Assembly: GCA_903929765.1 (NCBI GenBank)
Contig: CAIYVX010000003.1
Span: 1 to 47,599 of the forward strand
Direction of reading: 5' to 3'
Origin: an uncultured Planctomycetia bacterium
GTDB lineage: Bacteria; Planctomycetota; Phycisphaerae; FEN-1346; JAACEH01
Length of the DNA: 47,599 bases
A model generated the notes under the pieces. That model saw only the letters and a program-made list of their open reading frames with translations. It was not told the DNA's origin and did no database searches. Shown here in pieces: positions 12,673 to 32,960 of the stretch. A program made the translations under genes and the position numbers. Each line of letters starts with the position of its first letter. The first letter of the stretch is position 1.

Positions 12673-12909
12673 CCCCTCACCCGGCCCGTTGGGCCACCCT
12701 CTCCCGAGGGAGAGGGGTGAAGCGGCAGAAGAAGAAACAGAAAAAGAAACGGCGCGGGCGACATGTATGTCGCCCCTACGAGAAGAAGAAGCAACAGAAG
12801 AAGAAACGGCGTCCCCCAGCAATGCTGGGGGCTTCATAAGAAGAAGCAACGGCAGGGCAGAGATAAACTCTGCCCCTACGAAAGAAGAAGAAGAAAAAGA
12901 AGAAGCGGT
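12673..12909 (+). repeat. Repeat cluster between ligA and the exported protein gene
   Basis: The cluster contains a CCCTCACCC palindrome (12671-12720), a GGGCGACAT...CCCTACGA hairpin (12746-12772), a CCCCCAGC...GCTGGGGG hairpin followed by CTTCA (12810-12836), and a GGGCAGAG...CTCTGCCCCTACGAA hairpin (12854-12882). They are separated by GAAGAAGAAAC-type linkers. All are in plus orientation while the flanking genes are minus. The minus frame happens to be open through the cluster. Confidence 0.85.
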
Positions 12910-21710: not shown

Positions 21711-21960
21711 AAATGCAAAATGAAAAATTAAAAATGAGAAACGGCAACGGCAGTTTCGAGCGATATGCGTGAAACAGGTTCACCTTCACCCGGCCCTGAA
21801 GGGCCACCCTCTCCCTCAAGGGAGAGAGGTGAAGAAGAAAAAGAAGCAACAGAAGAAACCAGGGGCAAGATGCCCCTGTAACTCACGGGCGGGACGCCCG
21901 TGCCACTGGTGAAGAAGAAACAACGTTCCCCAGCAGTGCTGGGGGCTTCAAAAGAAACAG
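21704..21960 (+). repeat. Repeat cluster with four module types
   Basis: In order there are: an A-rich heptad tract (21704-21736) that includes the LemA stop codon, an AGAAACGGCAACGG linker, a CCTTCACCC...GAGAGAGGTGA palindrome (21775-21832), and a double hairpin GGGGCAAGATGCCCC plus CACGGGCGGGACGCCCGTG (21861-21903). A CCCCAGC...GCTGGGG hairpin with CTTCAAAAG (21929-21955) follows. It is the most complete module series in the window. Confidence 0.88.
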
Positions 21961-23740: not shown

Positions 23741-23868
23741 AACACACTTTGGCCCCGGCTAGCCGGGGCTTCAAAGTGTGGCACCCGGAAAAGAAGTAAA
23801 AGAAGAAACAAAGACCAGGGGCAAGATGCCCCTGAGACTCACGGGCGGGACGCCCGTGCCACGGGTGA
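23741..23868 (+). repeat. Two hairpin modules after LemA 2
   Basis: A CACTTTGG...CAAAGTGTGGCACCCGG hairpin (23743-23789), a GAAGTAAAAGAAGAAAC linker, and a double hairpin GGGGCAAGATGCCCC plus CACGGGCGGGACGCCCGTG (23817-23863) are present. They end directly at the A-run of the terminator of the small basic gene on the other strand. Confidence 0.85.
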
Positions 23869-26172: not shown

Positions 26173-27582
26173 TTACGAACGGCGCGGCAACAAGTCGGAG
26201 AGCAAGGCGAGGTTGCGGTCGGTGGCGCCGCGGCGCTGGAGGACGGCTTCGCGGGCCAGGCGGCCGAGTTCGGTCAGACGTTGGGGAGATTGTAACAAAT
26301 CGTCGAGGGCGGCGGCCAGGGAATCGGCGTCGGTGACGACGCGGGCGGCGCCAGAGGCGAGGAAGAGTTCGTGGGACTCGGGGAAGTTGAACATGTGCGG
26401 GCCGAAGAGGAGCGGGAGGCCGAGGCTGGCGGGGTCGATGGGGTTTGAGCCGCCGAGGGGGATGAGGGAGCGGCCGATGAAGGCGATGCGGGCGAGCTGG
26501 TAGAACTTCATGAGTTCGCCCATGGTGTCGCCGAGGATGACGGGGGCGGTTGAAGCATGGCCGCGAGCGGCCATGCCACCCACGTTATTGGATTTGGTTT
26601 CGGAGCGGCGCAGGAGGGGGAAGTCGCGGGCGGCGATGAGGCGGGCGACTTCGTCGAAGCGTTCGGGTTTGCGCGGGACGAGGGCGAGGCGTAGGGCGGG
26701 GAAGCGGGGTTTGAGGGCGGCATAGGCGTCGAGGAGAATTTCTTCTTCGCCGGGACCGGTGGAGCCGGCGACGAGGAGGATTTCTTCAGAAGTAGAAACA
26801 GAAGAAACAGCAGCCACGGGCAAGATGCCCGTGGGACTCATGGGCGAGACGCCCATGCTACTGTAAGACAGGCCGAGGTCGCGGGCTAGGTCGGGGGCGC
26901 CGGGGACGGGATCGCCGGTGATGTTGTCGTATTTCATCTGGCCAGTGACGACGAGGCGGCCGGGATCGACGCCGAGAGTGAGGAGGCGGTCGCGGTACTG
27001 GTCGTTCTGGACGGCGACGAGCGAGGCGGCGTTGATCATGGCGGCGGCGAGTGGTCGGACGCGGAGGTAGCCGCGCAGGCTTTTTTCGGTGATGCGGACG
27101 TTGACGGCGGCGAGGGGGATGCGGCGGCGGGCGGCGATGAAGAGGAACGAGGGCCACCATTCGGGCTCGACTTCGACGATGAGGGCGGGACGGATGCGGC
27201 GGAAGGAGCGGCGCACGGCCCAGGGGCAGTCGAAGGGATAGTGGAAGAGGGTGAGTCCGGGGAAGAGTTTGGCGGCGCGGGCGCGGCCGGTGCGTGTGGT
27301 GGTGGAGATGACGAGTTCGGCGTCGGGAAATTTTTTGCGGAGGACGGCGACGAGGGGTAGGGCGGCTTCGCATTCGCCGACGCTGATGGCGTGAATCCAG
27401 ATGCGGAGCGGGTGGGGCGGGAGGCGCGGGACGAAGCCGAAGCGTTCGGCGAGTCCGGGGCGCCACTTATCTTTTAACAACAAAAACGGCAGAAGGATGG
27501 GCCAGGAGAGGAGCGCGAAGAGAGCGTAGGCCAGGAAGAGGAAGGCGGTGAGGAGTGAGGATGGGAGGCGAGGAGGATACAA
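26173..27582 (-). CDS. waaA: 3-deoxy-D-manno-octulosonic acid (Kdo) transferase WaaA with two repeat insertions
   Basis: The 469-residue GT30 enzyme transfers Kdo from CMP-Kdo to lipid A and indicates a lipopolysaccharide outer membrane. An N-terminal membrane-proximal hydrophobic helix, a DKWRPGLAERFGF segment, the WIHAISVGECEAALPL motif (catalytic acid about E70), EPEWWPSFL, and the C-terminal GGSNPIDPASLGLPLLFGPHMFNF signature are all present. It is longer than usual (about 425). The excess is largely two in-frame genomic repeat modules, at about residues 239-256 (SMGVSPMSPTGILPV) and 333-344 (GGMAARGHAST). The first codon appears to be TTG at 27582. Whether the insertions are tolerated in variable loops is inferred. 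Confidence 0.93.
   Translation of the reverse strand: MYPPRLPSSLLTAFLFLAYALFALLSWPILLPFLLLKDKWRPGLAERFGFVPRLPPHPLRIWIHAISVGECEAALPLVAVLRKKFPDAELVISTTTRTGRARAAKLFPGLTLFHYPFDCPWAVRRSFRRIRPALIVEVEPEWWPSFLFIAARRRIPLAAVNVRITEKSLRGYLRVRPLAAAMINAASLVAVQNDQYRDRLLTLGVDPGRLVVTGQMKYDNITGDPVPGAPDLARDLGLSYSSMGVSPMSPTGILPVAAVSSVSTSEEILLVAGSTGPGEEEILLDAYAALKPRFPALRLALVPRKPERFDEVARLIAARDFPLLRRSETKSNNVGGMAARGHASTAPVILGDTMGELMKFYQLARIAFIGRSLIPLGGSNPIDPASLGLPLLFGPHMFNFPESHELFLASGAARVVTDADSLAAALDDLLQSPQRLTELGRLAREAVLQRRGATDRNLALLSDLLPRRS
26553..26588 (+). repeat. GCATGGCCGCG...GCCATGCCACC hairpin inside waaA
   Basis: A perfect stem GCATGGCCGC/GCGGCCATGC is followed by the constant flank CACCC. It is in frame within waaA and reads in the same plus orientation as its intergenic relatives. 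Confidence 0.85.
26815..26866 (+). repeat. Double hairpin module inside waaA
   Basis: CACGGGCAAGATGCCCGTG and CATGGGCGAGACGCCCATG are joined by GGACT and preceded by a GAAACAGAAGAAACAGCAG linker (from about 26790). The module is in frame and translated as part of WaaA. Relatives are at 21861, 23817 and 32908. Confidence 0.88.
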
Positions 27583-32785: not shown

Positions 32786-32960
32786 AGGTGAAAAGCAGAA
32801 ACAGCAACAGAGTTTTTGGGTGATATGGTTGCAACAGGTGCACCCTCACCCTACCCTCACCCTTCAAGGGAGAGGGGTGAAGAAGAGGCAGCAGAAACAA
32901 CAACGGCACAGGGGCGGGACGCCCCTGCTACTCACGGGCAAGATGCCCGTGCCACGGGTA
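32786..32960 (+). repeat. Repeat cluster upstream of the sensor kinase
   Basis: The cluster has an AGAAACAGCAACAG linker, a GCAACAGGTGCACC...GGGGTGAAG palindrome (32832-32881), and a GAAGAGGCAGCAGAAACAACAACGGC-type linker. It ends with a double hairpin AGGGGCGGGACGCCCCT plus CACGGGCAAGATGCCCGTG (32909-32953) just before the kinase ATG. Confidence 0.85.

Follow-up and report, generated by a model that had tools for sequence, protein, structure and literature searches.

REP elements translated in frame within a planctomycete waaA gene, and a candidate RAYT transposase embedded in valyl-tRNA synthetase

REPs are extragenic by name, and RAYTs are regarded as freestanding genes that may have been domesticated. 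The familiar mobile enzyme genes that occupy conserved sites within essential genes and keep the frame are those of the inteins. Hairpins preceded by GTAG or GTGG, single or paired and mostly intergenic, are known from the PVC group (Di Nocera et al. 2013, PMC3733652), and in the passages of that study covered here some GTAG REPs lie in frame within genes, among them tRNA synthetases and uvrA; the same passages describe RAYTs, or REPtrons, as REP-flanked genes and mention no RAYT inside a gene. In vitro, the tag guides cutting by TnpAREP, such that GTAG directs it to CT or CA and GTGG to CA or CC (PMC8266576). REPINs are paired REPs as well, associated with RAYTs and of inferred mobility (Bertels and Rainey 2011, PMC3116915). 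Palindromic elements of Rickettsia are likewise translated in frame in many proteins, and two of them, RPE-4 and RPE-6, are grouped with the CGTC repeats, which are described there as unassociated with transposase genes (PMC3733652). A 2018 survey of RAYTs (PMC6006769) left out proteins of unexpected length, taking them for fusions or errors. In the literature searched, which was largely that outside subscription, no earlier report was found of whole RAYTs in frame inside essential genes.

Here we describe two palindromic segments translated within waaA on a contig of an uncultured planctomycete; the window is the whole stretch of 47,599 nt that was analysed. The family to which the larger segment belongs has the same tags, hairpins and intragenic cases as the GTAG REPs of Di Nocera et al., and differs in that its pairs are direct tandems with a fixed 24 nt spacing. 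REPINs, in contrast, are inverted and extragenic, while the basic planctomycete pair is a direct tandem, although clusters of the form --++ also occur. With the E. coli TnpAREP system the planctomycete one has in common the HUH motif and tyrosine of the enzyme and a GTAG tag beside the cut site, which on the planctomycete side is a predicted one. The REPtrons of E. coli are freestanding genes, whereas the planctomycete candidate for the cognate RAYT lies itself inside an essential gene, that of valyl-tRNA synthetase (ValRS), which also separates it from the REPtrons of Di Nocera et al. The Rickettsia elements belong to the Rickettsiales, of another phylum, and are set apart from the waaA REPs by description. 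Taken alone, the WaaA inserts are a new case of a known phenomenon, intragenic REPs. Our main reading, to which we give a probability of roughly 85%, is that they are REPs of the kind moved by RAYTs and that the ValRS-embedded RAYT is their likely mover, mobility being judged by comparison.

The waaA gene and its two inserts

The host frame matches the Pfam domain Glycos_transf_N (3.5e-52), and the best Foldseek match to its structural model is 2xci, the WaaA of Aquifex aeolicus (E 8e-21). Its closest named WaaA relatives are from Planctomycetota, and a search of the genome returned no second WaaA match, so that the gene is present as a single copy. Two repeat modules translated in frame inside this gene had been proposed in a sequence-only reading, and both hairpin regions lie where it placed them and are read through in frame (Table 1).

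Insert A, whose double hairpin spans 52 nt plus a linker, lies before ILLVAGSTGPGEE, in the linker that joins the two Rossmann domains of WaaA. It is missing from all 29 aligned WaaA relatives, one of which (G001) belongs to the same family; the closest relative at this site is only about 62% identical, so the edges of the insert are not exact to the nucleotide. Its predicted RNA fold has a z-score of -6.6, and a closing stem folds around this REP pair, but such a stem is not general in the REP family. A native-loop origin of insert A is rejected in view of the 29 empty relatives together with the 45 genomic copies of its 19-mer. For insert B (z-score -2.5) the alignment with relatives, proposed as a check by the sequence-only reading and clear for insert A, is ambiguous, since the site is a loop of varying length, at which one relative has a longer, unrelated sequence. 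Insert B is likely, though not proven, to be an insertion, as judged solely from its membership in a family of 22 copies.

In an AlphaFold model of WaaA made from 29 sequences the mean pLDDT is 89.8 and values below 50 occur only at residues 246-255 and 333-342, each within one insert. The two inserts fall in the sole very-low-confidence loops of an otherwise confident model, which favours the suggestion that they lie in surface loops, in the sense of disordered ones. It is supported that in-frame modules are tolerated in WaaA, a single-copy enzyme of an essential type.

Table 1. Positions of waaA, its inserts and related repeats (window coordinates unless a locus is named)
Feature	Position	Strand	Remarks
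waaA, Kdo transferase, host gene	26173..27582	minus	469 aa; start codon uncertain, the earliest in the open frame being TTG
Insert A, REP pair with tail pyrimidine-rich on the sense strand	26788..26862	minus	YSSMGVSPMSPTGILPVAAVSSVST, about 25 residues; either edge may be off by a few bases
GTAG tag (CTAC on the plus strand)	26858..26861	minus	5' of hairpin 1 on the sense strand, CA before the tag
Hairpin 1 of insert A	26839..26857	minus	sense order CATGGGC-GTCTC-GCCCATG; plus strand, exact, CATGGGCG-aga-CGCCCATG; member of the 177-unit family
Hairpin 2 of insert A	26814..26834	minus	CCACGGGC-ATCTT-GCCCGTGG; plus strand, exact, CCACGGGCA-aga-TGCCCGTGG; 24 nt after hairpin 1
Pyrimidine-rich tail (purine-rich on the plus strand)	26788..26813	minus	translation AAVSSVSTS; family profile has a T-rich 3' tail
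Insert B, GTGG-tagged hairpin, second REP-like family	26553..26588	minus	GCATGGCCGCTCGCGGCCATGC; translation GGMAARGHAS
Hairpin of insert B, 22 nt	26555-26576		GCATGGCC; GCATGGCCG-cgag-CGGCCATGC
REP pair of the insert A family, outside genes	21860..21902	plus	
REP pair of the insert A family, outside genes	23816..23858	plus	
REP pair of the insert A family, outside genes	32909..32951	plus	
Palindromic module CCCTCACCC...GGGAGAGGG	10619, 19408, 32435, 32819; L157:4698; L167:2628		
AAAATTAAAAATTAAAAATG blocks	10519, 19329, 21692, 24923, 26106, 28419, 32131, 34545, 43986		

The REP family across the genome

Throughout the genome, an assembly of 116 contigs, the 19-mer CACGGGCAAGATGCCCGTG occurs 45 times and its reversed control not at all, while a looser core, GGGCRRGAYGCCC, has 177 matches against 2 for the control. 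The core of insert B, CATGGCCGCNNGCGGCCATG, is found at 22 places (reversed control 0), and in every copy of that family inspected CATGGCCGC is preceded by GGGTGG, which contains the GTGG tag. The unit of the larger family reads C[A/C]-GTRG-hairpin1-AGTCC-hairpin2-pyrimidine-rich tail and is repeated mostly between genes. Oriented from the tag, all 69 of its pairs are direct tandems with a spacing of exactly 24 nt; GAGT is invariant between the hairpins, and the 3' tail of the family profile is rich in T. Since 24 nt is eight codons, the reading frame is kept when units are added. Of the 69 first units of pairs, 64 have GTGG or GTAG ahead of the stem, as do 21 of 27 single units. The tag itself is preceded by CA or CC, GTGG going with CA in 44 cases and with CC in 25, GTAG with CA in nine and with CC in one. 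The preference of CC for GTGG over GTAG (25 against 1) fits the guide rule described for TnpAREP (PMC8266576).

The family is therefore a short palindrome (about 20-40 nt) of high copy number, with GTAG or GTGG at the foot of the hairpin, mostly extragenic and close to the ends of genes, and with a RAYT flanked by its copies; the waaA segments are REP elements, GTRG-tagged and of the GTAG superfamily. They are not REPINs, of which the basic unit is an inverted pair, for inversion is seen here only in some clusters (--++).

To see how often such units lie inside genes we surveyed 452 kb of stretches chosen around REP copies, in which element-bearing DNA is thus oversampled, and classified 86 distinct loci with a codon model whose frame accuracy is 97%. 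About 13 of the 86 are in frame inside genes and about 73 are outside. Besides WaaA, the hosts are ValRS, isoleucyl-tRNA synthetase (IleRS), MiaB, an MMPL transporter, a BatA-like protein, a DinG-like helicase, a GT9 heptosyltransferase, a GT4 enzyme, a P-type ATPase, a GH42-like enzyme, a DUF4175-like membrane protein and one unknown, and Pfam domains span or flank the inserts. No broken gene was found among the 86 loci; the 12 at which the classification was discordant, all read by eye, are gene boundaries. Of the five frames free of stops, copies within genes (L157, L167, L168, L211, L245) use only SGTGVPPVSPTGILPV and HGQDARATHGRDARAT, which have the same codon register but lie on opposite strands. 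A uniform use of every open frame, also considered, is contradicted by this.

The cleanest empty site is in IleRS, which reads CCG ATG [66 nt] GAC GGC in this genome and CCG ATG GAC GGC in G001. The sequence-only reading had argued that the modules spread and are not mere debris, a view borne out by this site and by the absence of insert A from its 29 relatives. It had also suggested looking for flanking target duplications, of which none can be claimed: the ends of the IleRS insert have at most AAA in common, and a RAYT mechanism predicts none. Its statement that the modules keep the orientation of the intergenic copies holds for the window, where the other three pairs are all '++', but not for the genome, in which the two orientations are balanced (89/88) and no preference is seen.

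RAYTs inside ValRS and other enzymes

Eight matches to Y1_Tnp (Pfam PF01797) are present in the genome, and one of them lies within a ValRS frame of 1308 residues, with REP pairs to its left (-- --) and right (++), all in a single frame. The Pfam domain tRNA-synt_1 spans the insert, with Y1_Tnp within it, and ValRS relatives are without about residues 253-517, their flanks abutting within a few codons. This frame is the sole ValRS match in the genome, and its embedded RAYT retains the PNHIHAV (HUH) motif and the tyrosine of MYAISHP. Flanking pairs of the waaA-type REP were sought at the other seven Y1_Tnp loci and none were found; one of these loci has a single REP unit about 1.4 kb away, and another has units about 2.5 kb off, inside a neighbouring gene. 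No other RAYT was found to be bounded by inverted pairs of the waaA-type REP; the ValRS RAYT is therefore the best candidate mover of the WaaA element, and it probably moves REPs of the waaA type, although the flanking REPs from which its cognate status is read could have inserted independently. Both this probable transposase and the GTRG-tagged REP identity of the modules had been missed in the sequence-only reading, whose account was in that respect incomplete. Pfam scans of the embedded frames matched no intein or splicing domain, and an embedded RAYT, unlike an intein, presumably stays in the host protein.

Relatives of the ValRS RAYT were searched for in 392 Planctomycetota genomes, mostly fragmented metagenome assemblies, and 57 of these hold one at E <= 1e-20. 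Reading of the frames places 24 of the 42 matches with E <1e-40 inside a different gene. The hosts include FabZ in ten genomes, all of one family and all at one site (in one of the ten, G319, the frame leads into a run of N), alanyl-tRNA synthetase (AlaRS) in three genomes, again at one site, as well as PurH, a flavin enzyme, DinG and several PglX or Eco57I-like methyltransferases. Pfam confirms both sides for two AlaRS cases, PurH and the flavin enzyme; in two of the FabZ frames it matches FabA as well as Y1_Tnp, and it places a more distant RAYT in LeuRS. In Planctomycetales bacterium 4572_13 the identical ValRS site is occupied by a RAYT, and large frames of a Verrucomicrobia genome contain RAYTs. 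Large RAYT frames in G167 (919 aa), G210 and G224 (565 aa) look neighbouring or spurious and are uncounted.

The HUH motif is present in all 46 RAYT domains examined, and nearly all embedded RAYTs have the tyrosine motif and hairpins on both sides. In a tree of the RAYTs the two ValRS copies pair with moderate support (99/67), and the copies embedded in FabZ and AlaRS intermingle, which suggests movement between sites. FabZ is without a RAYT in G189, which is of the same genus as G105. These genomes also have a FabZ paralogue of about 40% identity, so that FabZ may not be indispensable there. RAYTs stand in frame in BREX PglX-like and in Eco57I-like or DUF1156-like methyltransferases, genes of a defence type (L279, L293, L294, L296, L297, L298).

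The repeated finding of a transposase in frame in ValRS, AlaRS, FabZ, PurH and BREX-type methyltransferases makes an old question, that of the persistence and movement of REPs and RAYTs, directly testable, and the long RAYT proteins dropped from the 2018 survey (PMC6006769) may be real. By embedding of this kind a mobile element could stay concealed within essential genes with no need of splicing.

Routes of spread and other repeats

Under the main reading, the RAYT would cut the folded single strand at the CA or CC beside GTRG and paste the REP elsewhere without a target duplication. The 24-nt period, the open frames and the small, flexible peptide would allow copies to survive in loops, while other insertions would be lost through selection. 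The likely transposase would be the RAYT in frame in ValRS, with relatives residing in other housekeeping or defence genes. Perhaps, with chances a little short of even, this RAYT lineage has adopted in-frame residence in essential and defence genes as a lifestyle, as a loop domain of the host enzyme that would be protected against deletion (only exact removal restores the host) and would still feed its REPs; if true, such residence would match that of inteins, but with no splicing.

The embedded RAYTs might instead be domesticated domains that function for the host enzyme, and not parasites to which essential genes give shelter. The catalytic motifs are retained, and the FabZ RAYT recurs at the same site in ten genomes of one family, as domestication would have it; the distribution is nevertheless patchy, with a FabZ free of RAYT within the same genus, the hosts are unrelated enzymes, and the FabZ and AlaRS copies are mixed in the tree, and we regard domestication as unlikely. 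It is also improbable that the REPs spread without a RAYT, whether repeats recombine with or convert one another or replication switches templates at the hairpins. No transposition was seen, the pyrimidine-rich tail belongs to the insert, and the FabZ and AlaRS RAYTs of one genome are similar, all of which would suit such a route, but the CA/CC-GTRG tag agrees with the cutting rule of TnpAREP and a RAYT is bounded by inverted pairs of the waaA-type REP. Very little speaks for the WaaA segments being native lineage-specific loops or slippage expansions, immobile and palindromic by chance: loop length does vary among relatives at insert B, and the purine-rich linkers of the window are of low complexity, yet the identical 19-mers recur 45 times against a control of 0, the second core stands at 22 places, and the tag is conserved, the pairs keep their 24 nt and IleRS has its empty site. 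Assembly chimeras or mis-joined contigs, for which only the fragmented state of most of these metagenome assemblies speaks, are scarcely credible as the source of the in-frame RAYTs and REPs, given sites that recur in independent genomes (two for ValRS, three for AlaRS, ten for FabZ), long open frames and hairpin flanks.

Several other repeats accompany the REPs. The palindromic module CCCTCACCC...GGGAGAGGG, which encodes the peptide HPSPLGEGGPSGPGEGL, has 93 matches in the 452 kb and also occurs in frame in ValRS and MiaB. Hairpins of the form CCCCCAGC-NNN-GCTGGGGG make up another REP-like family, with 42 members in the 452 kb of stretches from this genome, including those at 12813, 17105, 21928 and 31230 of the window. 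Palindromes ACACTTTG...CAAAGTGT around a GC hairpin are a further repeat type (five in the 452 kb; window 23744-23780). The A/T-rich AAAATTAAAAATTAAAAATG blocks, nine of which lie in the window, are often found beside purine-rich linkers and hairpins.
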